DNA of 41,861 nucleotides from a virus: IMG/VR virus record IMGVR_UViG_3300047564_005879, positions 1 to 41,861 of that record, one strand, 5' to 3'. Both the position numbers and the translations under genes were made by a program. Below, piece by piece: positions 1,688 to 40,358 of this stretch (position 1 is its first letter; each line of letters opens with the position of its first letter). Under the pieces are notes generated by a model. It ran no database searches, was not told the origin of the DNA, and saw only the letters and a program-made list of their open reading frames with translations.

Positions 1688-2644
1688 ATGAGCATAGCAG
1701 TAATTGGTCAAGGATTTGTAGGAGGAAGTCTCACAACAGTCTTTGCAGAGCGTGGGCTTGATGTCTATGCTTACGATAAGTCTGGAAGATATGTAAAGGG
1801 TTCGTTGCCTAGTCACGGTGACCTTGCTGCTGGTTATCCCAACTCTGTTAAAGCGTTGGTCCTAGATAATGAAGAGAACGGAACACCTGACTTCTCGAAC
1901 ATATACTTTGTTTGTCTGCCTACACCTATGTTTGAGGACGGCTCTGCCGATCTTAGTATTGTAGAGAGTGTTCTTGAAGAACTAGCGTCTGTTCCAGGCG
2001 AAAGGATTGCTGTAGTTAAATCTACGGTTCCACCTGGCACTACGGAGAATTGGAATAAAAAATTTGGTTCTCGCGGGCTACACGTTATCTTCAACCCAGA
2101 ATTTCTTACAGAAGCAAATTCACTTGAAGACATGCGTAACCAAAATCGAATCATTCTAGGCGGTCCGCGGCCTTACATTAATAAAGTAAAACAGGTCTTT
2201 CAAGAAGCATTTCCAAATGTACCTATTGTAAAAACAGGCTCAACAACGGCAGAGATGGTGAAGTATGTAACAAATTGCCACCTTGCTGTGAAGGTATCAT
2301 TTGCTAATGAAGTTTCACAAATTTGTGAAGCACTTGACAAGGATGGTTTCAACATTGATTATGATAAGGTCGTGGAGTATGCCAAGTTCGACCGTCGCCT
2401 CGGAGACACACACTGGTCAGTTCCAGGTCCTGTCCCTACTCACGATGGTCGGTACGTGAGGGGATTCGGAGGTCACTGTTTCCCGAAGGACATCAACGCA
2501 TTGATGAGTGTTGCCCGGCAATATGGTGTTGAACCCAAAGTGATGCAGGCTGCGTGGGATAAGAACTTAGAGGTTCGAGGTCATGATGATCGTGACTGGG
2601 AGAAGCAAGTTGGTCGAGCTGTGTCTAAGAAGAATAAATCTTAG
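1688..2644 (+). CDS. UDP-glucose/GDP-mannose dehydrogenase family protein, short form
   Basis: A 318-residue NAD-dependent sugar-nucleotide dehydrogenase, the family that oxidises the C6 alcohol of UDP- or GDP-sugars to a uronic acid. It shows the Rossmann glycine motif GQGFVGGS (7-14), VVKSTVPPGTT (109-119), the NPEFLTEA segment with E142, the central-domain K192 and N196, and GGHCFPKD with the nucleophilic Cys264. Most family members run to about 390-450 residues with a third, UDP-binding domain after this Cys; here only about 50 residues follow, so that domain is missing or reduced. The ribosome site is weak. It closes the nucleotide-sugar block and would supply an acidic sugar donor to the downstream glycosyltransferases. 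Confidence 0.8.
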   Translation: MSIAVIGQGFVGGSLTTVFAERGLDVYAYDKSGRYVKGSLPSHGDLAAGYPNSVKALVLDNEENGTPDFSNIYFVCLPTPMFEDGSADLSIVESVLEELASVPGERIAVVKSTVPPGTTENWNKKFGSRGLHVIFNPEFLTEANSLEDMRNQNRIILGGPRPYINKVKQVFQEAFPNVPIVKTGSTTAEMVKYVTNCHLAVKVSFANEVSQICEALDKDGFNIDYDKVVEYAKFDRRLGDTHWSVPGPVPTHDGRYVRGFGGHCFPKDINALMSVARQYGVEPKVMQAAWDKNLEVRGHDDRDWEKQVGRAVSKKNKS

Positions 2645-2660
2645 AAAAGATTACTAAGAT
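2638..2660 (+). promoter_or_regulatory. Hairpin spanning stop codon, just before GTG start at 2667
   Basis: A perfect 7-bp inverted repeat, ATCTTAG at 2638-2644 and CTAAGAT at 2654-2660, with a 9-base loop. The left arm contains the dehydrogenase stop codon. Six bases separate the hairpin from the GTG start of the nuclease gene, and no Shine-Dalgarno sequence is present in that interval. No T-run follows, so it is not a factor-independent terminator. Confidence 0.5.
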
Positions 2661-2666
2661 AGATAA

Positions 2667-3482
2667 GTGACTACGTTCCCAACTGGCAAACCACACGTAT
2701 CCTACTCTGAAGTCAAGACATGGAAGGAGTGCCCATGGCGACACAAGCTTGTCTATATTGACAAGATTGACATGTTCAAGCCTAGCCCAAATATTGACTT
2801 TGGAACCATCGTCCACGCTGAACTTGAGGATTATCTAGAGCATAGAACTTTCAACCTTGACCGCATGCGCGATGCCATCACTACGACATGGCAGCAGAAG
2901 AGTTTTGAGAAGCCAGAAAACTGGATCAAAGAAGCCGAGCAGATCCTATCTGAGATCCCGCAGTTTCTCGATGATACATTTCCTGATTGGCAGTTCATGG
3001 CGTCAGAGCATGAACTCTACGAAGAGATACCAGGGTCTGATGTCAAGTTTAAGGGTTTCGTTGACGCGATGTTTCGAGCAAAGAACTCGCGCGGTAAAGA
3101 GATACTCTGGATCGCTGACTGGAAGACGACATCTGCCCGCGGTTGGACAACACAGAAGAAGCAGGATTTCATCTACCAGGCACAGATTGCACTCTACAAG
3201 TACTTCTGCTCAAGGAAGTTTGAGCTGGATGCAAAAGAGATCAAGTGCGGATTTGTTCTACTAAAGCGTGGTGCAAAGCCTGGCAAGGCATGCGAGCTTG
3301 TCGAGGTGTCTGTGGGCCCAAAGGCGTTCGAGAAAGCAACCAAAATGGTCAATTCTATGATCGCAGGCGTCAAGGCAAACAAGCCGATCAAGAATAGGAT
3401 GTCTTGCACTTACTGTGATTACAAAAATACTGAGCATTGCAGTGGCTCAAGTGAGTTTGCAGCGTTTACCTCTTATAAATAG
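2667..3482 (+). CDS. PD-(D/E)XK nuclease with Cas4/AddB-like cysteine cluster
   Basis: A 271-residue RecB-family nuclease. The active site is readable: H50 in GTIVHAEL, D133 in KGFVDAMF, D151-W-K153 in IADWKTT, and the downstream YQAQIALY motif (Q171). Four cysteines, C22 near the N-terminus and C247, C250, C258 near the C-terminus, follow the one-plus-three arrangement that holds a 4Fe-4S cluster in Cas4, AddB and related exonucleases. The enzyme probably degrades or trims DNA ends during phage recombination or host DNA breakdown. The start is GTG. GC content is visibly higher than in the sugar genes upstream: the 60 bases from 3061 have 30 G+C against 20 in the 60 from 601. It is a DNA enzyme placed between carbohydrate genes, so its position says little about its role. 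Confidence 0.78.
   Translation: MTTFPTGKPHVSYSEVKTWKECPWRHKLVYIDKIDMFKPSPNIDFGTIVHAELEDYLEHRTFNLDRMRDAITTTWQQKSFEKPENWIKEAEQILSEIPQFLDDTFPDWQFMASEHELYEEIPGSDVKFKGFVDAMFRAKNSRGKEILWIADWKTTSARGWTTQKKQDFIYQAQIALYKYFCSRKFELDAKEIKCGFVLLKRGAKPGKACELVEVSVGPKAFEKATKMVNSMIAGVKANKPIKNRMSCTYCDYKNTEHCSGSSEFAAFTSYK
3474..3481 (+). promoter_or_regulatory. T4-type late promoter core TATAAATA
   Basis: A perfect TATAAATA overlapping the stop codon of the nuclease gene, 24 bases before the glycosyltransferase start at 3506. T4 late promoters consist of just this -10 element, recognised by gp55, and this window encodes a gp55-like sigma factor at 6193. By T4 spacing, transcription would begin near 3487. It is the only perfect + strand copy I noticed. 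Confidence 0.6.
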
Positions 3483-3505
3483 GTGGTTATTATTGAAATA
3501 ACCAC
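3483..3505 (+). promoter_or_regulatory. 9-bp hairpin abutting the ATG at 3506
   Basis: A perfect inverted repeat, GTGGTTATT at 3483-3491 and AATAACCAC at 3497-3505, with loop ATTGA. The right arm ends at the base before the ATG. The only Shine-Dalgarno-like bases (AGGTGG, 3481-3486) are mostly inside the left arm, so the structure would hide them. No T-run follows. A late transcript starting near 3487 would lack half of the left arm and could not form it. Confidence 0.6.
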
Positions 3506-4750
3506 ATGCAGAAGAAAAAAATCATTGTCCTATCGGATCATGCGCTCTCAACATCTGGCGTAGGCACGCAGACACGACACTTGCTCAACGGTCTTGTTAA
3601 GAAGGGTGAGTGGACGTTTAGACAGTTCGGTGCAGCCATGAAGCACAGCGATTATCGAACTATTGTCGTGAATGAAGATCTCATTATCAAGCCAATTGAT
3701 GGTTTTGGTAATAGAGATCTTATTCGTGTTACACTCGCAACTGAAAAGCCAGATGCTATTCTGATCTTCACAGATCCACGTTTTTTCATCTGGCTTTTTG
3801 AGATGGAAGATGAAGTCCATCAAATGTGTCCAATATTGTGGTGGCACGTATGGGACAACCATCCATACCCAAAGTTTAATGACGTGTTGTATCAATCGAC
3901 AGACTTGATCAACTGTCATTCTTATATGACGTATGAGATGGTTAAAGAGCACTTTCCTGATCGAACACACTTTGTCCCGCATGCAATCCCAAATGATATG
4001 TTCTTCCCATTAAGTGAGTTAGAACGAACAAATTACAAGCGAAACTTGTTAGGCCCCAATAGGCTCGATCATTTTGTAGGCATATGGATCAATAGAAATG
4101 CTCGCCGCAAGCGCCCATCAGACGTTCTTCATGCTTGGAAGTTATTGTTAGATAGCATGGAAAAGAACGATGGTCATAGAAAGGCGACACTTATCATGCA
4201 CACAGATCCTCTCGATCAGGAAGGACCAAATCTATTTGCCGTTGCTGAAGAGCTAAACATTACAGATAATGTCTTTTTCTCTAAAGATCGAATTGAATTT
4301 GACAAGATAAATGTTCTTTACAATATTGCTGACGTATGCATCAATATTTCTTATGCTGAGGGATTCGGGCTAGGAACACTAGAGGCAATGCAGGCAGGCA
4401 CGCCTATTGCAGCTGTAAAGACAGGTGGTCTTACACGTCAAGTTGTTGATCATCGCGATGGAACAGCAAATGGTATTGCTTTACCAGTTGAATGCAAGAC
4501 TCTAGTAGGATCGCAGTTGGTGCCATACATTTATGAAGATTATGTCACTGTTGAGACAACAGCAGAGGGCTTGTACAGTCTGTTTAAGATGACAACAGAT
4601 GAAAAGCGTATTCTAAGGGAAAAGGTTAGAAACTACGCTCTAACAGAATTTTCATACCAGAAGACGATTGATGACTGGCACGACACAATGAAAGAGACAA
4701 TTGAAAACTGGAAGAAACGTCATAGCCAATGGGAGATCAAGGAGATATGA
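3506..4750 (+). CDS. GT-B glycosyltransferase (GT4-like, family 1)
   Basis: A 414-residue retaining glycosyltransferase of the GT-B fold. The N-terminal domain starts with a beta strand and the glycine-rich STSGVGTQTRHLL loop (15-27), typical for acceptor/diphosphate contact. The C-terminal domain carries the E-x7-E motif, E285-GFGLGTL-E293, followed by MQAGTPIAAV and GGLTRQVVD, which bind the nucleotide-sugar donor. It likely adds a sugar to a glycan or, less likely, to phage DNA or protein. A perfect late promoter core and a start-codon hairpin lie directly upstream. Its stop overlaps the next glycosyltransferase start as ATGA, so the two are coupled. Confidence 0.78.
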   Translation: MQKKKIIVLSDHALSTSGVGTQTRHLLNGLVKKGEWTFRQFGAAMKHSDYRTIVVNEDLIIKPIDGFGNRDLIRVTLATEKPDAILIFTDPRFFIWLFEMEDEVHQMCPILWWHVWDNHPYPKFNDVLYQSTDLINCHSYMTYEMVKEHFPDRTHFVPHAIPNDMFFPLSELERTNYKRNLLGPNRLDHFVGIWINRNARRKRPSDVLHAWKLLLDSMEKNDGHRKATLIMHTDPLDQEGPNLFAVAEELNITDNVFFSKDRIEFDKINVLYNIADVCINISYAEGFGLGTLEAMQAGTPIAAVKTGGLTRQVVDHRDGTANGIALPVECKTLVGSQLVPYIYEDYVTVETTAEGLYSLFKMTTDEKRILREKVRNYALTEFSYQKTIDDWHDTMKETIENWKKRHSQWEIKEI

Positions 4751-5907
4751 AACGTGTAGTTGTTAGAGCACCCCTTCTGAGTATCTCTGGCTATGGTGAG
4801 CACTCCCGCCAAATTTTCCAGTGGGCAAAGTCAATTGAAACGTGGTCTGTCCAAACACAAGTTCTCAACTGGGGTAACACGTCATGGCACATCAACCCAG
4901 ACAATGAGAATGGCATAGTTGATCAGATTATGAAATCATCAACCAATCAATCTAGTGGTTTTGATATCTCGATACAGGTGCAACTTCCTAATGAGTGGGA
5001 TCCGACGCTTGGTAAATTCAACATTGGTGTGACAGCTGCAGTTGAAACAGACAGGTGCAATCCAGAGTGGGTAGACGCTGTGAATAAGATGTCTGTTGTA
5101 ATTGTTCCAACAGAACACGTAAAGAAGACTCTGCAGACATCAGGCAATGTCACAACACCTATTCATGTCATTGGAGAATGGTACATGCCTGAAATTGATC
5201 AAGTGAAGGATAAATTTCAGCTACCCCTGAGTACAACGTTCAACTTTTTAATTGTATCACAGATGACTTCTAGTAATTCTCTTGATGACAGAAAGAACAT
5301 ACACGATACACTACGATGGCTGTTTGATGTCTTCAAGGACGACAAGGATGTAGGAATTATCCTTAAGACCAACATGGGACGTGGAACAAAGATAGATAGG
5401 AAGATCACATTTGACAACATTGAAAAGTTTGTTGCTCAAAATAGGAAAGGAAAATATCCACGCGTTCACATGATTCATGGCAACCTAACTTCTGAAGAGA
5501 TGGCTGGTCTTTATAGAAACCCTACTATTAAAGGTTTAATTAGTTTGACCAGAGGTGAGGGATTCGGGCTACCAATTCTTGAAGCATCAGCGTCTAGCGT
5601 CCCAGTAGTTGTGACTAATTGGTCCGGTCATCTTGATTTTCTAAAGCAGGGCAAGTATGTGGGAGTTGATTATACGCTAGTTGATATCCCACAGACGCGT
5701 GTCGATGGAAAGATCTTTGTTGCAGGGACAAAGTGGGCTCAACCTAACGAAGCAGACTTTAAGAAGCGCATTGTGAAGTTTAGATCTAGTCCTCTTGTAC
5801 CCAAGGAGTGGGCACAAGATCTTTCTGATAAGTGCCAGAAGACATTCTCAAGAGAGGCGATACTTAAGAAATATGCATCTTTGACTGATGCACTAGATCT
5901 GAGGTGA
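4747..5907 (+). CDS. Second GT-B glycosyltransferase
   Basis: A 386-residue protein when started at ATG 4747, which has AAGGAGAT just before it and overlaps the upstream stop as ATGA; an in-frame ATG at 4729 lacks such a site. The N-terminal SISGYGEHSRQIF segment and the C-terminal E271-GFGLPIL-E279 motif with ASSVPVVVTNWSGH identify a GT4-like retaining glycosyltransferase. It is not a recent duplicate of its neighbour: the middle regions differ and only the E-x7-E area is clearly alike. The pair probably adds successive sugars to one acceptor. Donor and acceptor are unknown; the upstream dehydrogenase and sialate-type genes are candidate suppliers of donor. Confidence 0.76.
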   Translation: MKRVVVRAPLLSISGYGEHSRQIFQWAKSIETWSVQTQVLNWGNTSWHINPDNENGIVDQIMKSSTNQSSGFDISIQVQLPNEWDPTLGKFNIGVTAAVETDRCNPEWVDAVNKMSVVIVPTEHVKKTLQTSGNVTTPIHVIGEWYMPEIDQVKDKFQLPLSTTFNFLIVSQMTSSNSLDDRKNIHDTLRWLFDVFKDDKDVGIILKTNMGRGTKIDRKITFDNIEKFVAQNRKGKYPRVHMIHGNLTSEEMAGLYRNPTIKGLISLTRGEGFGLPILEASASSVPVVVTNWSGHLDFLKQGKYVGVDYTLVDIPQTRVDGKIFVAGTKWAQPNEADFKKRIVKFRSSPLVPKEWAQDLSDKCQKTFSREAILKKYASLTDALDLR

Positions 5908-5909
5908 GC

Positions 5910-6218
5910 ATGTTGATAGCACTCACAGCTCTGTTGATCATTCTTGTGGTGACGCTAAGCGTCTCACTTTATTACAACTACAAATTTGGTCGCATCATTA
6001 TTGAAGTAGAAGACACAGTTGAAGATTCACTAGATCTTCTAGATAAGAATTACGAAAAACTATCAAAGATCCTCGAGATACCTGTCTTCTTCGACTCAGT
6101 TGAAGTTAGGCAGGTGATAGCAGAGATAGACGATGCACGAGGAACTATCTTAAAAATTGCAAACGCTCTAACAAAGAGTGTTGGGAGCGAAGATGGCGCA
6201 CAAGAAAAAGACAGTTAA
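5910..6218 (+). CDS. Small membrane-anchored protein, unknown function
   Basis: About 102 residues. The N-terminus is one hydrophobic segment (MLIALTALLIILVVTLSVS, about 19-22 residues) with few charges before it, then a Tyr-rich border (LYYNYKFG) and a charged helical region likely to sit in the cytoplasm or along the membrane. The chosen ATG at 5910 has GAGGTG at 5901-5906; an in-frame GTG at 5904 is the alternative and adds two residues. The 3' end overlaps the sigma factor gene by 26 bases. I recognise no family. A membrane helix plus coiled region would fit a host-takeover or lysis-control protein, but nothing in the sequence decides this. Confidence 0.6.
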   Translation: MLIALTALLIILVVTLSVSLYYNYKFGRIIIEVEDTVEDSLDLLDKNYEKLSKILEIPVFFDSVEVRQVIAEIDDARGTILKIANALTKSVGSEDGAQEKDS

Positions 6219-6921
6219 GTCATCTTCAGGCACCGGCATGAAGATGTATTTTCATGCTGGAACACATGATGCAATAGTTAAGTTTCAGAGTGAGTCTAAT
6301 GACCTCACAAGAGAAGAAATATACGTCCAAGAGATCCTACCAGCATTTGACAAGCTTGTTGAGAACCTAATCTTTATACAGGGCTTCAATGTTAATCACG
6401 GAAACTTTGACGATCTAAAGTCTGACTGCATCACTTTTCTATTTGAAACTCTTAAGAAGTTTGATGCCTCACGCGGCACAAAGGCATTCAGTTACTTCAA
6501 CGTTGTAGCCAAGAATTGGCTTATTGTCAAGAGTAGGCAGCGTGCAAAAGCTGCAAAGCGGATGTGCAGCATCGACGACAAGGACGCAATCAACGAGATT
6601 GAGCTTATTGACCTAGAGAACTACTCGGTCGATCAGAATCAAGATTCAAAGATGATCAAGGAAGAGACGACATTAAGCATCTTCGCACTACTTGAAGACA
6701 TACGATGTGATATGACGTGTGATAATGAGATTAGGTGCATTGAAGCGATTAAGAAGATCTTTGATGAGATTGACGATGTTGAGATCTTGAATAAGCGCGC
6801 AATCTTTGTCTATGTTCGTGACATCACAGGACTTACACCTAAACAGCTATCTATTGCAATGTCTGGAATCCGAAAGCGATACAAAGATCTCATGCTGACA
6901 GGTGAGTATGATATTTTCTAA
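6193..6921 (+). CDS. 55: Late-transcription sigma factor (T4 gp55-like)
   Basis: A 242-residue protein starting at ATG 6193, with GGAGCG upstream; the frame is open from GTG 6178, but that start has no ribosome site. The middle, from DDLKSDCITFLFETLKKFD through RGTKAFSYFNVVAKNWL, matches sigma region 2 as found in gp55 (helical core, aromatic residues that melt the -10, then a basic segment VKSRQRAKAAKR). There is no region 4, as in gp55, which reads only TATAAATA. The last residues, GEYDIF, form an acidic-hydrophobic tail like the sliding-clamp binding tails of T4 late-transcription proteins and polymerase. It would turn on the structural genes that follow. A perfect late core lies at 3474. 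Confidence 0.75.
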   Translation: MAHKKKTVKSSSGTGMKMYFHAGTHDAIVKFQSESNDLTREEIYVQEILPAFDKLVENLIFIQGFNVNHGNFDDLKSDCITFLFETLKKFDASRGTKAFSYFNVVAKNWLIVKSRQRAKAAKRMCSIDDKDAINEIELIDLENYSVDQNQDSKMIKEETTLSIFALLEDIRCDMTCDNEIRCIEAIKKIFDEIDDVEILNKRAIFVYVRDITGLTPKQLSIAMSGIRKRYKDLMLTGEYDIF

Positions 6922-30755: not shown

Positions 30756-33113
30756 ATGTCATTCATCAAGCTGCAGCCTGAGAACTTCGACACGTTCTCT
30801 CTCACACTGCGGCCTCGCGCCGAGTTTGTGTCCTCTTCAAGCGGAATTACAGGATCTGTACGTCTTATTGAGCGCCCAAGTACTTTTAACAAGGAAATTG
30901 TTACTTCGTATGACAGGACGACGTATAGCGATGAGCTAGGGGAGCTCGACGACCTGCTCGAGAGAGCATCTACGGCAGGCGATGACTCTGACCGTGCTGG
31001 CTATATAGAAGATTATCTTACACGTGTTAATAACCAGAAAGAAAACCAGAAAAACAACATCGTCATCCCTGTCCAACGCATAACACAGTCGATAGAATTC
31101 GATCGCAACTCATTCACTAAAAGCATCATCAAGAATGTCATGATGCCACAGTACCGATCTGTCTATACAGATTGCGACTACTCTTATAAGAACTACCACA
31201 CGATCAACTTCTTCACGGCGTCGACTGTTCCTAGTGATAGTGCAATTATTTATCCTAATGTTAATGATCAATACACACTGACAGATGCTTTTAGCTTTGA
31301 CTTCTACATTAATCCCAGGTATCTACCAGATGTGGGTGCTGTTTTTAATGCAGGTGCAATCTTGCACATGTCGTCATCATTGTGTGTATCTCTGCTAACA
31401 GGATCGCACAGGAATGCAGATGGTCAAGTTGATCAATTTCGTCTTGCAGTCGGTTTTAAGCATAGTGCCAATGAACCTCCTAGTAGCATTAATGTCACTC
31501 AAGCTAACGGTACAAGATCTTATCCGCAAGATCTAATATACGTCAGTGATGATAATCTCTTAAAGCACAATAATTGGCATCATGTTTCAATACGCTGGGG
31601 CGCAGCATATAACAATGGAACAGGCTCTTTTGCTGTTGATTCCATAACATCATCGTTCCACTATCCAAGCAGCTCAATAGTAGGAAGCGCAAATCCCAAT
31701 GTTGTGATATTGGGAAACCAGTATGTTGGAAGTGATGATACAACTAAGTTTTTTAACAGTTCTGTTCAATATAGTGAAGGATTAACAAGTTTAAACTCAG
31801 GCTTATTAGATCCGAGCGGCTTCACTTTTTTAAGCCCTCTTAATTCTGAATTACATGACCTTAAGATCTTTAATAGAGTCTTAAACAACTCTGAAGTAGA
31901 ATACTATAGAAAATATGGCACCAGCCTTGATACATCGGGTCTTATCTTTTATGTGCCTCCGTATTTTACTAACAGTACAATAAAGACTCAAGATTGCTTC
32001 GCTGCACCCACATTTAAGGCAACAAGGCCGCCATACACTCCATTTGATGTAAATCTTGCATCACAGGTGCAGGTTTTTTCACCAAACTTACAAAATTTTC
32101 TCGTTGATTTTGTTAATAAAGAGACATCTCAACCGCGTCTATACAATTTGACGTCGTCTGTTGATCTTAATGCAGTAGATTTGTATGCTGCTGATCACAT
32201 GTTTAGAAGCGGATTGTTCATCAAGCGAGCATACACGATTTTACCGTGTGACAACGGACTATTCGTCCCTAATTTCTCTGTAATGCCCACAGCATCGTAT
32301 GGGTCCGCAGCATACCCAACAAACTATACACCTTACACAGATTCATCAGGAATAACAGATATAACTAGCATTAGTTTGTCTAATCTAGTTGTTACTAGTA
32401 GTACATCAAAAGGTGAACAAACAGTTGATCTTATTGAAAGGCAGTTTTTTATGTCACCAGAGAACTATCTTTACGATACAGCATCTTTCCCCACACAGGG
32501 AGAGGCTTTGAATGCAGGAGATCTGACTGTATTGCTATCTTTTTCTGGATCAAATGCTGCCAAAGCAGACACATCAAGTAATCTTTCTACCATCTACCAG
32601 ATCAGTAATCTCTACTATGGCAACCAGATTTTTCCAGAATCTTTTACCATCTCATCGACATCTCTGACAGGGTCGGGCGGTAAGATCAACATCACGCTTA
32701 AGGACAATGGTAACGGTGGTCTCTACAGAGCAGATGCAGTCACACCTCATCCTACATGGGCGACTGTAGGTAACATTTTCTATGATGAGGGTCTTTCCAT
32801 CATCAAGTCACCTCACCTCTACTACTTTGGTAAGGATAATTTCTCTGTCTCGTTCAATGGATCACAGAATATTCACACATATACCATCGATGCTATCTGT
32901 CCAGCTGGAGAGATCAACTCATCATCTAATCCGAGTTACCTATCATTCCCGCCCACAAATGAACAGAATGAAACGGCAGATAACTTCGTGTACATCACGG
33001 GCATCAATATTCACGACGACAACTTCAACGTTATTATGAGAGCGAACCTGGCACAACCAGTGCTCAAGAGGCCCGATGAAGAGTTTCTCTTTAGAATCAA
33101 GTACGACATGTGA
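30756..33113 (+). CDS. Virion protein with LamG-like domain and shared C-terminal module
   Basis: A 785-residue protein with a strong ribosome site (GGGAGGAC). After an N-terminal region with a charged helical part (residues about 55-110), residues about 165-390 form a LamG/concanavalin-like sandwich: FSFDFYINPRYL.., LKHNNWHHVSIRWG, NVVILGNQYVG, and the closing ELHDLKIFNRVLNNSEVEYY typical of LamG domains. The last 130 residues share GNIFYDEG, a N-S-S-S-N-P motif and a final FRIKYDM strand with the 399-residue protein upstream. It may bind glycans on the host surface. The 3' end overlaps the RuvC-like gene by 38 bases. Confidence 0.65.
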   Translation: MSFIKLQPENFDTFSLTLRPRAEFVSSSSGITGSVRLIERPSTFNKEIVTSYDRTTYSDELGELDDLLERASTAGDDSDRAGYIEDYLTRVNNQKENQKNNIVIPVQRITQSIEFDRNSFTKSIIKNVMMPQYRSVYTDCDYSYKNYHTINFFTASTVPSDSAIIYPNVNDQYTLTDAFSFDFYINPRYLPDVGAVFNAGAILHMSSSLCVSLLTGSHRNADGQVDQFRLAVGFKHSANEPPSSINVTQANGTRSYPQDLIYVSDDNLLKHNNWHHVSIRWGAAYNNGTGSFAVDSITSSFHYPSSSIVGSANPNVVILGNQYVGSDDTTKFFNSSVQYSEGLTSLNSGLLDPSGFTFLSPLNSELHDLKIFNRVLNNSEVEYYRKYGTSLDTSGLIFYVPPYFTNSTIKTQDCFAAPTFKATRPPYTPFDVNLASQVQVFSPNLQNFLVDFVNKETSQPRLYNLTSSVDLNAVDLYAADHMFRSGLFIKRAYTILPCDNGLFVPNFSVMPTASYGSAAYPTNYTPYTDSSGITDITSISLSNLVVTSSTSKGEQTVDLIERQFFMSPENYLYDTASFPTQGEALNAGDLTVLLSFSGSNAAKADTSSNLSTIYQISNLYYGNQIFPESFTISSTSLTGSGGKINITLKDNGNGGLYRADAVTPHPTWATVGNIFYDEGLSIIKSPHLYYFGKDNFSVSFNGSQNIHTYTIDAICPAGEINSSSNPSYLSFPPTNEQNETADNFVYITGINIHDDNFNVIMRANLAQPVLKRPDEEFLFRIKYDM
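31694..31715 (+). repeat. 9-bp RNA-type hairpin (one G-U pair)
   Basis: TCCCAATGT at 31694-31702 pairs with ATATTGGGA at 31707-31715 around loop TGTG; one pair is G-U. A similar stem, CGATCTGT/ACAGATTG with loop CTAT and one G-U pair, is at 31155-31174, and AGATCTT/AAGATCT at 31515-31534. Confidence 0.55.
32361..32392 (+). repeat. 13-pair hairpin with one bulge inside LamG-like gene
   Basis: ATAACTAG (32361-32368), bulged C, ATTAG (32370-32374), loop TTTGT, then CTAAT (32380-32384) and CTAGTTGT (32385-32392). Twelve Watson-Crick pairs and one G-U pair; a strong structure in RNA. Confidence 0.65.
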
Positions 33114-33636
33114 TACAATCCTCGGCCTCGATATTTCGACGTCATGCACAGGTTATGCGATTGTGACGACAGATGTAGGCAGAGTAGTTGAGGTAGGAAA
33201 TTTTAAGCTTGACAAGTTTGACGACTTCTTCGATAAGTGCGATGCTTATAGGTCCGCACTCTCGGCAGTTTTTGCAAGACATGTGGGCATCAAGAAGATC
33301 TGCATCGAGGAGAACTTGCAAGCATTCCGGCCAGGCATGTCATCTGCTAAGACGATCAATACACTCGCTCGTTTTAATGGCGCTGCATCTCTGATCTCTT
33401 ACGAAGTTTGCAAGACAAAACCTGTCTTTCTCAATGCCACATCAGCAAGGTCAAAGCTAGGCATTAAGCTTGACCGCAAGTCAGAAGTGTCCACAAAGCA
33501 GCAGATCTTCGAGTTCATCAAGCCTCAAATTGACATTGAGTGGCCCACCACAAAGACAGGCGGTGTCCAGACATCTTGCTATGATATGGCAGATGCATAT
33601 GTGCTAGCTCGCGCAGGTTGGTTGAACAAAGAGTAG
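33076..33636 (+). CDS. RuvC-like Holliday junction resolvase
   Basis: A 186-residue RNase H-fold nuclease. The four acidic residues of RuvC are in place: D19 in ILGLDISTSCTGYAI, E78 or E79 in KICIEENLQAF, and D170 and D173 in CYDMADAYVLAR. It would cut four-way junctions during recombination-dependent replication or before packaging; T4 uses the unrelated endonuclease VII for this. The ATG at 33076 lies inside the previous gene, with AAGAGG about five bases upstream; no other usual start codon occurs before the first motif. This gene opens the replication block, where GC content is higher than in the structural run. Confidence 0.8.
   Translation: MKSFSLESSTTCDTILGLDISTSCTGYAIVTTDVGRVVEVGNFKLDKFDDFFDKCDAYRSALSAVFARHVGIKKICIEENLQAFRPGMSSAKTINTLARFNGAASLISYEVCKTKPVFLNATSARSKLGIKLDRKSEVSTKQQIFEFIKPQIDIEWPTTKTGGVQTSCYDMADAYVLARAGWLNKE
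33449..33475 (+). repeat. 9-bp hairpin with one bulge in RuvC-like gene
   Basis: GGTCAAAGCT (33449-33458) pairs with AGCTTGACC (33467-33475) with one bulged A and an 8-base loop. Confidence 0.4.
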
Positions 33637-33639
33637 CCG

Positions 33640-33657
33640 TATCTTACTATTAAGATA
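33640..33657 (+). promoter_or_regulatory. Hairpin running into the primase start codon
   Basis: TATCTTA at 33640-33646 and TAAGATA at 33651-33657, loop CTAT; perfect 7-bp stem whose last base is the A of the ATG. No Shine-Dalgarno sequence lies between hairpin and start. AAAGAG at 33628-33633 would be brought close to the ATG if the hairpin folds. Confidence 0.55.
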
Positions 33658-34619
33658 TGACGACTGTCACTTCAACCGAGAAGATAAGATTTCTGCGCGG
33701 CATATTTCGTGACATCCAAGTTTCACGAGACGGCAACGATTGTGCTGTTCCGTGCCCAAACTGTAAGACACCTGATAAGAAGAAGCTGTCGATCAACGTT
33801 GAGACGTGGAAGTACCATTGCTGGGTGTGCGGTGTCAAAGGTGGAAATCTTCGATCGCTCTTTAAACAGTACTATTCACCCGAAGTTGTTGTCGCTTTTA
33901 GAGAGCGTTTCGGCATTAGTGACGATGATGCTGCTGAGGTTCCTGCCGTAGAGGTCGTGACACTGCCCGATGGTTTGCAGCCTGTTGCGCTTGTAGCAAA
34001 CTCTAAGAACCCTAATTTCAGAGCGACATACAACTATCTGATGCGTCGCGGCCTAACTGAGCGTGACCTGTGGTATTGGAAGATGTGCGTCAGCAGTGAG
34101 AATAGCTTTACAAGACGCGTCATCATACCCTCATTTGACGCTGATGGCGATCTCAACTATTACGTCTCACGTTCGATTGACAAAGACACAAAACCTCGAT
34201 ATGTCAATTCAAAAGCAAACAAGACTGAGATCATTTTCAACGATCTGATGGTTGATTGGTCAAAGCCCGTTGTGATCGTCGAGGGCGTCTTTGATGCGAT
34301 CAACGTTGGCCAGAATGCAATCCCAATACTTGGATCGTATCTACCGCAATCGGCAGCACTTTTTGCCAAGATTGTGGCAAATAACATACCGGTGACGTTG
34401 GCACTCGACCCCGACGTTGAGGATAAGATGCACAAGATTGCAGGTGATCTGTACAAGTTCGGCGTCGAGGTCAGACAAGCAGACATCACAGGTTTTAAAG
34501 ACATCGGTGAGATGCCGCGTGACGTTGCTAAGCAGCGTATAGCAGATGCAAAAGTGTGGCATCCAAAGATCAGCATGCTGCACAAAATTAGCAAGATATC
34601 AAGTGGATCTATTCTATAG
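33657..34619 (+). CDS. 61: DNA primase (T4 gp61-like, zinc finger plus TOPRIM)
   Basis: A 320-residue protein. A zinc-binding N-terminus has C33-P-N-C36 and C55-W-V-C58, the CHC2-type finger of bacterial and phage primases. A TOPRIM domain follows, with E209 in VVIVEGVFDAIN and D251-P-D253 in LALDPD. T4 gp61 is 342 residues, so the length is as expected. It makes RNA primers for lagging-strand synthesis, normally with the gp41 helicase, which is not in this window. The ATG abuts a hairpin and lacks an ordinary ribosome site. The next gene starts 16 bases after the stop. Confidence 0.83.
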   Translation: MTTVTSTEKIRFLRGIFRDIQVSRDGNDCAVPCPNCKTPDKKKLSINVETWKYHCWVCGVKGGNLRSLFKQYYSPEVVVAFRERFGISDDDAAEVPAVEVVTLPDGLQPVALVANSKNPNFRATYNYLMRRGLTERDLWYWKMCVSSENSFTRRVIIPSFDADGDLNYYVSRSIDKDTKPRYVNSKANKTEIIFNDLMVDWSKPVVIVEGVFDAINVGQNAIPILGSYLPQSAALFAKIVANNIPVTLALDPDVEDKMHKIAGDLYKFGVEVRQADITGFKDIGEMPRDVAKQRIADAKVWHPKISMLHKISKISSGSIL

Positions 34620-34634: not shown

Positions 34635-34994
34635 ATGCCTAGTAATCTAAAACTTCGTCGCTTCATTCTCAAAGAGATGGCCGATGTGCTCGCAGATGAT
34701 GCACTCTTCACAAAGCAGACCCCACAAGACGACTCACCTGTTGGTGACGTGGACGACGAGACCGTAGATGAGGGCGGCGACTGCGGTTGTGGTTGCGGTG
34801 GAGCACCGGGAGGTTGCGGCGACAAGAAGAGCGGAACAATCACAGCAACTGCGCTCTTCAAGAGAAGCCTCTATGAGATCATTGAAGATGCAATTGGTGT
34901 GTACGACCAGTACGATGATGCTGACCAGATAAGCGACGAGATGATTGCTGAGATCGAGCACTTCAGCAACAAGCTCAAAGCCTTCAGGAACTAA
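34635..34994 (+). CDS. Small acidic protein with Cys/Gly-rich centre, unknown
   Basis: A 119-residue protein with three parts: a basic N-terminal helix (LKLRRFILKEMADVL), an acidic linker (about 30-48), and a glycine-cysteine knot C50-x-C52-x-C54-x6-C61, then a helical acidic C-terminus (SLYEIIEDAIGVYDQYDDADQ..). The four closely spaced Cys could hold zinc or an iron-sulphur centre; the spacing is not that of a zinc finger I know. It lies between primase and the Mre11-Rad50 fusion, suggesting a role in replication or recombination. I recognise no family. Confidence 0.55.
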   Translation: MPSNLKLRRFILKEMADVLADDALFTKQTPQDDSPVGDVDDETVDEGGDCGCGCGGAPGGCGDKKSGTITATALFKRSLYEIIEDAIGVYDQYDDADQISDEMIAEIEHFSNKLKAFRN

Positions 34995-35032: not shown

Positions 35033-38000
35033 ATGAAAGCGTTCCATATCTCAGACATCCATTTTAGAGGCCTGTCTCGACATGACGAGTATAGGAAGTG
35101 TTTCACTAGATTGTTCGACATCGCTCGAAAGGAGAAGCCTGATGTCTTCTTCGTCGGTGGTGACATCGTTCACTCCAAGACACAAGGTATTACACCAGAG
35201 TTAATTGATATTTTGACCTGGTGCTTCGAGACGATGGCAGAGATCGCACCTGTCCATATGATCTTGGGCAATCATGACGGTCTCATCCACAACAAGAGCC
35301 GTCAAGATGCGATCACACCCATCATCAACGCGCTGGGAAACAAGCGCATTTACTTGTACAAGAAGTCGGGTGTTTATCCGACAGGCCTGTCTGGCATCAA
35401 CTGGTGTGTCTTTTCGTGCTTTGACGAAGAAGGCTGGGATGATGTCAAGCCTGTCAAGGGTGAGATCAACATCGCTTGCTTCCACGGTGCCGTTCGTGGG
35501 TCCTCGACAGACTCTGACTGGAAGATCAACGGCGAAGTGACATCAAACTTCTTTGATGATTTTGACTATACTTTCCTAGGTGACATCCACAAGCGTCAAA
35601 ATGTCACAGGCAACGGCGTGATTGCCTATCCAGGGTCGTTCATCCAGCAAGATTACGGCGAGGATGTCATCAAGGGATGTCTGCTGTGGGATATTAAGTC
35701 AGCAGTCGATTACAGCTGTAAGTTCATCCACATCATCAATGACTCACCATTTGTAACGATCGGTTACCGTGGTGATCTTGATGAAACTTACCAGATGATC
35801 GACAGCGCACCTTCAGGTGCACGTGTCCGCATTGGTTCTGATGTTCCGGTACCTCCTACAACACTGCACCTCATTGAATCGAAGCTGCAAGCTGAGAAGT
35901 CACCGAAAGAGATTGTCTATAAGATCGCAGATCTAGATGCTGGTAAAAGCCTTGCAAAGACAAGTGGAACACCTGTAACAGATCTCAGACAGCCTAACAC
36001 AATCAAAGAGTTGATCCGCGACTTCTACGCTGACTCAGCGTTGCCAAAAGACAAGTTCGAGCGGGTTGATGCAATTGTTGATAGGTACATGACGTCACTT
36101 GAATTAGGCGGAGACGAGGACCGAAATTACAGTTGGTCACTTGATAAGTTGGCGTTTAAGAACACGTTCGCGTTCCGTGGCGACAATGAGATTGACTTTA
36201 CCAAGTCATCGGGCATCACAGGTATCTTTGGTAAGAACCGTGCTGGAAAGTCGTCCATCATTGGTAGTCTCGTTTATTGCCTCTTCAATACCTCGGATAG
36301 AGGATCTCTCAAGAATCTCCACATCATCAATGATAAGGAGGACACGTGTGATGCCGAAGCAGATATTACGGTCAAGGGCGATAAGTACAAGATTTCTCGC
36401 AAAACTAAGAAGACAGTCAATAAGAAGGGTGACGTTAACGTCAATACGACGTTAGGCATCACTAAGCTAGATACCGATATGCAGCTTAGCGACGTATCAG
36501 ATGAACAGCGTCGTGAGACAGAGAAAGTGCTGCGTCAGCTAATTGGAACTGCAGATGACTTCTTCATGACATCGCTTGCAGCTCAAGGTAACCTCAATAA
36601 GTTCTTTGAGGAGAAGTCGACCGCCCGAAAGCAGATTATTGGAAAGTTTCTCAATCTTGACATCTTTGACTCACTTTATGAACGATCACGCGAGGACCTT
36701 GTTCCTCTCCGTGCCTCATTTAGAGGACGACGTGACAAGCAGCAGATTGATGCAAAAATTTCTGATGCTGTAAAGATGCTCGCCATAGAACGGGAGAAAA
36801 CTTCTGAGCTTGATAGAACACACGGCGATCTGACACGAAAATTGGCAGACCTACGTGTCATCATCAATGGTGACACATCAGTTGAAGCAGCCGTTAAGCT
36901 GCGGGAGTTCGAGCAGCGCCGTGACCGCCTTGCTGAGAAGCGAAAGGAGCATGCATCTCAAATTGAGGATGCTAGTACACTACGCTCTAAGCACACAACA
37001 CGTCTCGAGAAATTCAGCGCTCTCAAGGAAAAGTTCCCTATTGATGAACTTCGCCAGAAAGTTCAATCACAAAGGTCCCTGGAGACAAAGCTTGAAGCTG
37101 CAAACAGAGCGTTGCAGCAGCATCTTAAATCTCTAGGAAGGCTGAATGAAGATGTTGGAATTCTATCAACAGTTCCGTGCGGTGACGAATTTCCAACGTG
37201 TCCATTCATCAAGAAGGCATTTGAGAGTAAGTCAAAGATTGGTCAGGAGCAGCTAGAAGTTGAAGAGCAGCGGAAGTACATCAAGCTGCTTCAAGACAAT
37301 ATCAATGAAATAGCTGAGCAGAATCTTGATGATAAAGTCAAGAAATATGACCTAATGCTCCAGGAAGAGAGGACACTGCAATTTGATGTTAGTAAGCTTG
37401 ATCTAAAGATCGAGCATGCAGAGGCGTCACTAAAGACAGTTGATGGTGATCTTTCAACATGTAATCTTGAGATCGACCGACTTAGCGCAGTTGTCAAAGA
37501 CTCAGACAACCTGTGTGGTGTCTATGACAGTATCAAGGAAGTAGAAGAAGAGCTTGAGAAGACACGTAAATTGCAGCTCACAAATGCAAAGAACGTCGGT
37601 GCTCATGAGACATCGATCACAACACTTCAAAGTGAGAAGGAGACGCTTGAGAAAGATCTTGCTGACCTCGAGATCTTTGAGTTGTTCAACGTCGCCATGT
37701 CAAAGAAGGGTCTCCCATCTCGCCTAATCTCTAAGCTGCTTCCTCTTGTCAATGCCGAGATCCAGAATATTCTGCTCGGTGTCTGCAATTTCACAGTCGA
37801 GCTTGAGGTGGATGAGGAGTCGAACTCACTTGAAGTTTACATTAACTACGGTGATAAGCGACGGATAATTGAGCTAGGATCAGGAATGGAAAAGATGATC
37901 TCTGCAATTGCGACAAGAGTTGCTCTCATCAATATGTCATCTTTACCCAAGTCTAATATCTTTATCATTGATGAAGGGTTCGGTGCTCTTGATGATACTA

Positions 38001-38152
38001 ATCTTGAAGCATGTTCACGCCTCCTGCGGTCCTTGAAGAAGCACTTCAGCCAGATCCTCATCATCTCACACGTAGATGCGATCAAGGATGCAGTTGATAA
38101 CTTTGTTGAGATCAATTGGATTGATGGAGGTGCAAGTGTTAGATACTCATGA
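35033..38152 (+). CDS. Fused Mre11-Rad50 (gp47-gp46) recombination nuclease/ATPase
   Basis: One unbroken 1039-residue frame carries both subunits of the SbcCD/Mre11-Rad50 complex. Residues 1-355 are the Mre11/gp47 phosphoesterase: D8-I-H10, GGD44-IVH47, GNH81-D82, CFH151-G, GD184-IH186. From about 367 Rad50/gp46 begins: Walker A GKNRAGKS (400-407), coiled coil about 560-710, hook cysteines C716 and C723, second coil to about 880, signature ELGSGMEK (947-954), Walker B IFIID980-E981, and H1013 in SHVD. T4 gp47 (339) plus gp46 (560) total 899, so the fusion is near full length for both. The complex resects DNA ends for recombination-dependent replication. The spacing C-x6-C in the hook differs from the usual C-x2-C. 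Confidence 0.88.
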   Translation: MKAFHISDIHFRGLSRHDEYRKCFTRLFDIARKEKPDVFFVGGDIVHSKTQGITPELIDILTWCFETMAEIAPVHMILGNHDGLIHNKSRQDAITPIINALGNKRIYLYKKSGVYPTGLSGINWCVFSCFDEEGWDDVKPVKGEINIACFHGAVRGSSTDSDWKINGEVTSNFFDDFDYTFLGDIHKRQNVTGNGVIAYPGSFIQQDYGEDVIKGCLLWDIKSAVDYSCKFIHIINDSPFVTIGYRGDLDETYQMIDSAPSGARVRIGSDVPVPPTTLHLIESKLQAEKSPKEIVYKIADLDAGKSLAKTSGTPVTDLRQPNTIKELIRDFYADSALPKDKFERVDAIVDRYMTSLELGGDEDRNYSWSLDKLAFKNTFAFRGDNEIDFTKSSGITGIFGKNRAGKSSIIGSLVYCLFNTSDRGSLKNLHIINDKEDTCDAEADITVKGDKYKISRKTKKTVNKKGDVNVNTTLGITKLDTDMQLSDVSDEQRRETEKVLRQLIGTADDFFMTSLAAQGNLNKFFEEKSTARKQIIGKFLNLDIFDSLYERSREDLVPLRASFRGRRDKQQIDAKISDAVKMLAIEREKTSELDRTHGDLTRKLADLRVIINGDTSVEAAVKLREFEQRRDRLAEKRKEHASQIEDASTLRSKHTTRLEKFSALKEKFPIDELRQKVQSQRSLETKLEAANRALQQHLKSLGRLNEDVGILSTVPCGDEFPTCPFIKKAFESKSKIGQEQLEVEEQRKYIKLLQDNINEIAEQNLDDKVKKYDLMLQEERTLQFDVSKLDLKIEHAEASLKTVDGDLSTCNLEIDRLSAVVKDSDNLCGVYDSIKEVEEELEKTRKLQLTNAKNVGAHETSITTLQSEKETLEKDLADLEIFELFNVAMSKKGLPSRLISKLLPLVNAEIQNILLGVCNFTVELEVDEESNSLEVYINYGDKRRIIELGSGMEKMISAIATRVALINMSSLPKSNIFIIDEGFGALDDTNLEACSRLLRSLKKHFSQILIISHVDAIKDAVDNFVEINWIDGGASVRYS

Positions 38153-38378
38153 ATCTACACCACTCTTCTGTCCAGTTTGTGAATCTGCCATGTCGTCAAA
38201 AGACGATGACTTGTACTTTAATCTTCTTGAATGCTGCAAAGATTGCGGCATGACATGGGCCGAGACCAATAGAACTGCGTGGTTAAATGGTTGGCGCCCT
38301 CATAGACAAGAAATTGATAATGAAATTCTTCGTAGAAGATCACACATACTTAACGGGATAGATATAAAGAGAGGTTAG
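38136..38378 (+). CDS. Small zinc-ribbon protein
   Basis: An 80-residue protein starting at GTG 38136 with GGAGGTG at 38127-38132; the frame is open further upstream but without a ribosome site. C12-P-V-C15 and C34-x2-C37 (C33 also possible) make a zinc ribbon, followed by a basic helix (NGWRPHRQEIDNEILRRR) that could touch DNA or RNA. The start lies inside the last codons of the Mre11-Rad50 gene. The function is unknown. Small zinc proteins beside packaging genes may act in transcription or as nuclease cofactors, but nothing here decides. Confidence 0.65.
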   Translation: MLDTHESTPLFCPVCESAMSSKDDDLYFNLLECCKDCGMTWAETNRTAWLNGWRPHRQEIDNEILRRRSHILNGIDIKRG

Positions 38379-38382
38379 TCTC

Positions 38383-38766
38383 ATGCTTTCAATGCAACAA
38401 GTAAATACACTCGGGCAGCTCATTGACACTACATTTGGTAAGAGTTCAACTACGACTGCACCAACTGTCTCAATTAAGATGGTCCTTCAAGGAAACTCTC
38501 TAATTGTTAAGTACACTACGCTCGTTCATTTTGCTTCTGAGCAGTCAATGCGTGAGCAGAGTAAGGAACTAGAGCGTGCAGCAGTCCAGCTCACAAAGAA
38601 GTCAATTGATAATGTTATTAGCGAATTTAAGAAGATTGAGGGCAAGGCTTTAAAAGCTACCAAGAAGACAACTGATAATGGCATCGAGCTAATCAGCATG
38701 TCACCTTATAATCCTCGCAAAGTTGCCTACTATAGATTCAATACGACGTATGAAATTGATGTATGA
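38383..38766 (+). CDS. Small protein before the terminase, unknown
   Basis: A 127-residue protein with AGAGAGG before ATG 38383. It has a helix-strand N-terminus (MQQVNTLGQLIDTTFGK), a strand pair (SIKMVLQGNSLIVKYTTLVHFA), a long charged helix (about 50-90) and a strand end (RKVAYYRFNTTYEIDV). The stop overlaps the terminase start as ATGA. The position is that of the small terminase gp16 in T4, but T4 gp16 is 164 residues and largely helical, and I see no resemblance. It may still serve packaging. Confidence 0.55.
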   Translation: MLSMQQVNTLGQLIDTTFGKSSTTTAPTVSIKMVLQGNSLIVKYTTLVHFASEQSMREQSKELERAAVQLTKKSIDNVISEFKKIEGKALKATKKTTDNGIELISMSPYNPRKVAYYRFNTTYEIDV

Positions 38767-40358
38767 ATACCAGCAACAAATCAAGACAAGTTTCTGAGAT
38801 AATAAGATGTGGTAAAGACCCATCATATTTTTTCAACAACTATGTCAAGATTCAGCATCCGACTAAAGGAACGATACCGTTTAAGACGTTTCCTTTCCAA
38901 GACCAGTGCGTAGATGACTTTATAGAGAATCGATTCACAGTCATTGTTAAAAGTCGTCAGCTTGGTCTATCAACGCTTGTTGCTGCATATTCTGTCTGGC
39001 TTGCACTTTTCCAGAAAGACAAGAACATCCTGATCATTGCAACTAAGCTCGGTGTTGCCCAGAACTTCATTAAGAAAGTGAAGACTATGGTAAGCAACCT
39101 TCCACCCTGGATGGTGTTACCGCAGATTACGCTAAACAATCGGCAGATGATCGAATTTAGTCACGGTTCTTCAATTAAGGCAGTACCCACCTCAGAAGAC
39201 GCAGGACGTTCTGAGTCGCTGTCACTGCTCATCATTGATGAGGCTGCATTCGTTAGAAACTTTGATGAGCTGTGGACAGGTTTGTACCCTACAATCTCAA
39301 CAGGTGGACGTGCTATTGTTCTTTCAACACCTAACGGCGTTGGTGGACAGTATTACAAGCTTTTCACTGAGGCCGAATCAGGTCTGAACGAATTTAAAGC
39401 CATCCGTTTGAACTGGGATGTGCACCCAGAACGTAATCAAGAGTGGTTCGAGAAGGAAACGAGAAATCTGTCATCCAAAGAGATCGCACAAGAATACCTG
39501 TGCGACTTTGCTGCATCAGGCGAGACGTTCCTCAATGACGATGACATCAAATGGATTAGCAATATTATACGCCCACCGATCGATCGCGGAGGCCCAGATA
39601 GAAATGTCTGGATTTGGAAACATGCACTCACAGAGCATAAGTACATCATTTCAGCTGACGTTGCAAGAGGAGACGGTAAAGACTACTCAACATTTCATGT
39701 TATCGATGGAACTGAAGGGGAAGTAGTTGCTGAGTACAAGGGGAAGATTGCGCCAGATAAGTTTGGCGAGCTCTTAAATGAGTATGGCTTGTTGTATAAC
39801 AAAGCACTGATGTGCCCAGAGAATAACTCATTTGGATATGCAACAATAGTCAAGCTTAAAGATCTAGGCTATCCAAAGATGTACTACAATAAGAACAAGT
39901 CGGTCTACATTGGCGACTATGTTCCTCCTGCTGAGACAGAGCTTGCAGGTTTTACGACCAGCGGAAAATCACGTACACAAATATTGACTAAGCTAGAAGA
40001 GGTTATTAGAAATAAGCAGCTATTAATCTATTCGTCTCGTTTTTATGAAGAGCTAAAGACATTTGTCTGGAATGAGAATAAAGCGCAGGCCATGAAAGGT
40101 GAAAATGATGACCTTATCTTGTCGCTTGCTATTGGAACGTGGCTTTATGATGCATCATCTGACTACAGCAAAGACTCAGATAAGCTAAATCAGGCTATGC
40201 TTTCTGCAATGGGTATTAAGAGCAAGCAATTTAATGGTGCGTCAAACGATGTATTATCGAACAAGCACCAACAAGAGACAAACCGAGATCGCGTGCTACG
40301 TGGTTACTCGCGGCCGATGGGGATTCCTCCTGAGTTCGCGTGGGTCTACAAGAACTAG
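38763..40358 (+). CDS. 17: Terminase large subunit (gp17-like)
   Basis: A 531-residue packaging motor. The ATPase has Walker A SRQLGLST (64-71), Walker B LLIID159-E160 and the coupling motif STPNG (188-192). The RNase H-like nuclease has D299 in ISADVARGDG, E353 in CPENNSFGYA and D449 or D450 in GEND-DLILSLA. T4 gp17 is 610 residues; the shorter length is from the N-terminus and C-terminal tail. The enzyme cuts concatemeric DNA and pumps it through the portal encoded next. The ATG overlaps the preceding stop. In T4 the sheath and tube genes 18 and 19 lie between gp17 and gp20; here they do not. Confidence 0.92.
   Translation: MNTSNKSRQVSEIIRCGKDPSYFFNNYVKIQHPTKGTIPFKTFPFQDQCVDDFIENRFTVIVKSRQLGLSTLVAAYSVWLALFQKDKNILIIATKLGVAQNFIKKVKTMVSNLPPWMVLPQITLNNRQMIEFSHGSSIKAVPTSEDAGRSESLSLLIIDEAAFVRNFDELWTGLYPTISTGGRAIVLSTPNGVGGQYYKLFTEAESGLNEFKAIRLNWDVHPERNQEWFEKETRNLSSKEIAQEYLCDFAASGETFLNDDDIKWISNIIRPPIDRGGPDRNVWIWKHALTEHKYIISADVARGDGKDYSTFHVIDGTEGEVVAEYKGKIAPDKFGELLNEYGLLYNKALMCPENNSFGYATIVKLKDLGYPKMYYNKNKSVYIGDYVPPAETELAGFTTSGKSRTQILTKLEEVIRNKQLLIYSSRFYEELKTFVWNENKAQAMKGENDDLILSLAIGTWLYDASSDYSKDSDKLNQAMLSAMGIKSKQFNGASNDVLSNKHQQETNRDRVLRGYSRPMGIPPEFAWVYKN

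Follow-up and report, generated by a model that had tools for sequence, protein, structure and literature searches.

The locus

The DNA stretch analysed here (the window) is a 41.9-kb fragment of 41,861 nucleotides from IMG/VR virus record IMGVR_UViG_3300047564_005879. A single open frame at positions 35033-38152 of the plus strand encodes a protein of 1039 amino acids in which Mre11 is followed by Rad50, an assignment supported by Pfam, PHROG, near relatives and a structure model. On the same strand lie, upstream, the genes of a RuvC-like Holliday junction resolvase of 186 amino acids (33076-33636; PHROG_159/827) and of a DNA primase of 320 amino acids (33657-34619; PHROG_47) and, downstream, the gene of a T4-type terminase large subunit (38763-40358; PHROG_2, Pfam Terminase_6N). 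The order resolvase, primase, Mre11-Rad50, terminase is conserved in related loci: genes similar to the resolvase and the primase are present in 60 and 78, respectively, of the 81 related loci with enough upstream sequence, and a gene similar to the terminase is present in 69 of the 93 with enough downstream sequence. The original prediction had viewed the gene against the background of T4-type phages; the T4-type terminase domain and the presence of baseplate-wedge genes agree with this, but in the tree described below T4 gp46 and gp47 fall outside the fused family.

Between the primase and the fusion gene there is a gene of a 119-amino acid protein (34635-34994) with a CGCGCGG stretch, found in 7 of the 81 loci, and the 3' end of the fusion gene is overlapped by a small Cys-rich open reading frame (38076-38378) that belongs to no known family and has a similar counterpart in 62 of the 93 loci.

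Domain organization of the fused protein

Pfam assigns residues 1-187 of the 1039-residue protein to Metallophos (calcineurin-like phosphoesterase) and residues 384-1028 to SMC_N, while PHROG_100 (SbcD) covers residues 1-363 and PHROG_77 (SbcC) residues 369-1037, so that SbcD and SbcC matches lie on the two parts of one chain. The structure model of this chain (mean pLDDT 84.6, pTM 0.49) finds its PDB fold matches among Mre11-Rad50, SbcCD and SMC heads; since it is a monomer model with a pTM of 0.49, the placement of the domains relative to each other is uncertain.

The Mre11 part begins with the phosphoesterase domain (residues 1-245, positions 35033-35767), delimited by the Pfam match, the motif columns and the model, and carrying the motif residues D8, H10, D44, H47, N80, H81, H151, D184 and H186. 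It is followed by a capping domain (residues 246-299, 35768-35929), recognized by the order of strands and helices in the model, and, after a weakly modelled segment (residues 300-314), by a helix-loop-helix (residues 321-355, 35993-36097) with predicted helices at 321-331 and 339-355. By analogy with the T. maritima complex, this element is likely the one that binds Rad50. The model and the family rows place a linker of about 11 residues (356-366, 36098-36130) between the end of this helix-loop-helix at residue 355 and the first predicted Rad50 strand, which begins at residue 367; W368, just past the linker, is conserved in 85 of 88 family rows.

The Rad50 part consists of an N-terminal ATPase lobe (residues 367-542, 36131-36658) with Walker A at 400-407, an antiparallel coiled coil with its apex (residues 543-889, 36659-37699), seen as helices in the model, and a C-terminal lobe (residues 890-1039, 37700-38149) with the signature at 947-954, Walker B at 976-981 and H1013 of the H-loop; both lobes are delimited by motifs, family rows and the model. 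A predicted hook loop (residues 714-724, VPCGDEFPTCP, 37172-37204) lies between model helices 670-713 and 724-761. What the original prediction had said about the chain itself was thus borne out: the frame contains no stop, every residue is where it had been placed, the ABC ATPase set is complete and both halves are near full length.

The nuclease active site

The prediction of a complete nuclease motif set held only in part. The named residues are all in place, but they deviate from the canonical Mre11 set, because the G-H-x-H of two-gene Mre11/SbcD proteins is replaced by G-D-I-H, with an aspartate (D184, codon at 35582-35584) at the position equivalent to P. furiosus His206, and the third residue of the GDxxD motif is H47 (GDxxH). 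Both changes are those published for Mimivirus R555, which has a histidine in place of the third aspartate of GDxxD and an aspartate in place of His206 (PMC3175470). The sequence GDIH was found in 87 of the 88 family rows and ADIH in the last one, so the D184 column is invariant, and all eight two-gene pairs compared have GHxH. The histidine of the H47 type is not diagnostic of the fusion type, since two two-gene pairs of Gram-positive phages have it too.

Because D184 replaces a canonical metal-ligand histidine, the activity or the metal preference of the enzyme may differ from those of other Mre11 proteins. It could even be supposed that the nuclease half is degenerate or weak and that the protein mainly tethers DNA ends, and the invariance of this aspartate in a family whose two-gene counterparts have histidine points that way. 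This is unlikely, however: hardly any variation is seen at the remaining metal ligands (D8, D44, H81, H151 and H186 in all 88 rows, N80 in 87, H10 in 86), purifying selection on the Mre11 half is strong (pN/pS ~0.04), and aspartate can ligate Mn or Mg.

The linker and the integrity of the frame

The short linker, near-constant in length across the family, is also what could suggest that the fusion creates a different kind of gating, in which the travel of Mre11 away from Rad50 during the ATP cycle is limited, and the original prediction had raised the possibility that a covalent link changes how the nuclease is gated. This is a possibility at most, and such a restraint is quite improbable: 9-12 residues were calculated to bridge the gap of ~28 Å in the T. 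maritima complex (PMC3175470), so the 11 residues present here fit an ordinary complex and require no new restraint. Since a short linker only joins parts that already touch each other, what the fusion brings is most likely not new chemistry but a guarantee that the two activities are made in equal amounts and inherited together.

Relatives were used in place of read coverage. Of the 17 loci that a protein scan of IMG/VR brought up, those free of contig-end cuts have one frame through both halves. Eight other contigs (L002-L007, L009 and L011), 95-97% identical, contain the same 1039-residue frame, and a more distant one (L012, 76% identical) contains a frame of 1038 residues; the frame is open across the linker in all of these near relatives. 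Against the eight, the whole gene has a mean pS of 0.39 and pN of 0.019 (pN/pS ~0.05), and the linker, over its 11 codons only, a pS of 0.65 and pN of 0.05. Among about 100 full-length relatives none has two genes at the Mre11/Rad50 boundary. The fusion is therefore real and conserved under purifying selection. That two genes were joined here through a missed stop or indel has a precedent in Listeria phage LMTA-57, but can be dismissed for practical purposes given a frame kept intact in nine relatives despite a mean pS of 0.39, the lack of two-gene relatives at this boundary among intact family loci, and a linker that reads as a conserved peptide ending in W and not as a ribosome-binding site. 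The LMTA-57 gene itself (L022, 3917-6946) was rejected as an independent fusion: its single 1009-residue frame of 3030 nucleotides is one base short of the 3031 nucleotides in close relatives with two CDS. It is an artefact or a mutation, and probably a database error.

Distribution of the fusion and its relationship to known systems

A profile scan revealed at least 588 confirmed relatives, 80 of which were kept, and 16 were found when prokaryotes were scanned with one genome for each species, mostly on metagenome-assembled contigs, which are perhaps phage contigs themselves. One frame of at least 1000 residues is present in 109 of 137 loci (a count to which the window's own frame, the LMTA-57 artefact and a contig present twice contribute), and most of the remaining loci are cut by contig ends. 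The fusion is thus common to hundreds of environmental phage contigs. In a tree of 34 fused, 4 broken and 8 two-gene rows, built by a quick method and with several long branches, a branch of support 100 separates the fused and broken rows together from the two-gene pairs. Because they form one clade, a single origin of the fusion is likely in this sample, which is one without the published plasmid and eukaryote fusions.

The fusion as such is not a discovery, and its presentation as a novelty did not stand: in 2011, Yoshida, Claverie and Ogata described Mre11/Rad50 fusions in Bacillus phage 0305phi8-36, in plasmids and in eukaryotes as well as in Mimivirus (R555) (PMC3175470). In their study, aquatic viral metagenomes proved rich in R555 homologues located next to phage primases, and a phage origin of these homologues was argued for; the fusion could be confirmed there in only a few long sequences (PMC3175470). 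The protein of the window resembles the R555 lineage, judging by the shared active-site changes and by fold matches of the model: in a viral structure library it comes closest to giant-virus proteins that are as long as a complete fusion, namely those of Tupanvirus (E 1.5e-60), Yasminevirus, Harvfovirus and Catovirus. By its published description, R555 likewise has Mre11 followed by Rad50 in one chain, GDxxH, an aspartate at the His206-equivalent position, a linker of 9-12 residues and homologues that adjoin phage primases in aquatic metagenomes; it differs in its length (1351 versus 1039 residues) and in the tailed-phage context of the gene described here. R555-like fusions, whose abundance in viromes had in 2011 been seen on mostly short reads, can now be linked with hundreds of phage contigs that contain the gene in full length and share a conserved neighbourhood of recombination, replication and packaging genes.

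The 'AAA domain containing protein' of Microcystis phage Mel-JY01 (WWT39521.1) and its relatives are also fused, match over the full length, have G-D-x-H and a primase upstream, but the Mel-JY01 protein is 27% identical to that of the window, has a C-x2-C hook and belongs to another sub-lineage. T4 gp47/gp46 and SPO1-type SbcD/SbcC belong to the same two protein families and probably share the role, but are encoded by two genes and have G-H-x-H and a C-x2-C hook. E. coli SbcCD, with the same fold and ATP-gated nuclease architecture, differs in the same three respects and has a much longer coiled coil.

The hook

Less expected than the fusion is the predicted hook motif, altered and well conserved. 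According to a paper on the zinc hook, CXXC is conserved across all life and in viruses (PMC5093744), and a literature search of open-licence papers found no C-x6-C Rad50 hook. The spacing in the window is indeed C-x6-C (C716 and C723), as originally noted, in place of the usual C-x2-C. C723 is present in all 88 family rows, 68 of which have C-x6-C, 16 C-x2-C (among them the Mel-JY01 sub-lineage, the huge-phage fusion L021 and two broken loci) and four another spacing; among eight two-gene Rad50s, C-x2-C was seen in seven and neither spacing in the remaining one, from a Moorella phage. A DNA-pattern scan for the C-x6-C motif, blind to the fusion, found at least 120 stretches. Its 76 new loci comprise 36 full fusions, 12 fusions that lack one motif or run into a contig end, 21 cut before or within Mre11 and seven others (five re-split and two fused with deviating motifs). 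No annotated phage record matched when a 78-residue hook peptide was used as the query.

It is possible, and we propose it tentatively, that a large single-chain phage lineage swapped C-x2-C for a conserved C-x6-C loop (VPCGDxFPTCxFI) that would give dimerization another metal geometry or strength, and that some members were then re-split inside Mre11 at a new place, so that a fused enzyme is again made from two genes, which overlap. Such a hook offers a natural test of what a zinc hook requires. In two loci (L097 and L101) the heads group with the C-x6-C sub-lineage and the hook is of the C-x2-C type; an exchange of the coiled coil is possible there.

Relatives split within Mre11

Some relatives are re-split inside Mre11, away from the old gene boundary. 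In five of them (L042, 3304-6544; L108, 2301-5553; L173, L201 and L207) the cut falls between GDIH and YPG and the two genes overlap; all metal ligands remain on the first piece, which has gained a conserved tail resembling ELxIDExDLxxYPGAEV. These five group together (support 95) beside fused rows. Another locus (L155) shares the cut point of these five, its two pieces lying about 200 bases apart. In a 484-kb phage (L020), a 305-residue open reading frame with a TnsA-like endonuclease domain (5656-6573) lies between the pieces of the fusion gene; Rfam detected no intron in this insert at the gathering score and gave chance-level matches only at a relaxed threshold. A later cut in L132 (4992-8859) leaves the nuclease alone (272 residues), a Lys/Glu-rich open reading frame (220 residues) and the cap with Rad50 (793 residues). 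On the tree with the two-gene pairs, breaks inside Mre11 fall in three separate places. Phage genes split by a homing endonuclease with functional products are known, and the nrdA gene of Aeromonas phage Aeh1, split with mobE, provides a model for these relatives only, the enzyme being a different one (PMC2988022); by this analogy, a homing endonuclease may have caused the re-splitting.

Proposed role

Ten large related records, whose completeness as genomes is not established, gave the fusion gene as their only full-length SbcD or SbcC match (in nine records with the SbcD model, in all ten with that of SbcC); two additional SbcC matches in Mel-JY01 are weak and partial. We consider it highly probable that the gene is the phage's only recognized Mre11-Rad50 (SbcDC) machine, a single chain of the R555 type that would carry out gated end processing before packaging. 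The chain probably works as a pair, joined at the Mre11 domains, the ATP-bound Rad50 heads and the hooks, which would make it the equivalent of the usual 2:2 complex, and ATP engagement would gate the access of DNA ends to the nuclease. The gene order suggests, if indirectly, recombination-dependent replication and end processing, and likeness to T4 gp46/gp47 likewise makes end processing for this mode of replication the likely role; hairpins or blocked ends would probably be processed too. A single-chain Mre11-Rad50 is also a convenient object for testing ATP gating at fixed stoichiometry.

Elsewhere in the window, a PD-(D/E)XK exonuclease gene (2667-3482) encodes its second recombination-type nuclease, and a UDP-glucose dehydrogenase-like gene and two glycosyltransferase-like genes occupy positions 1688-5907.
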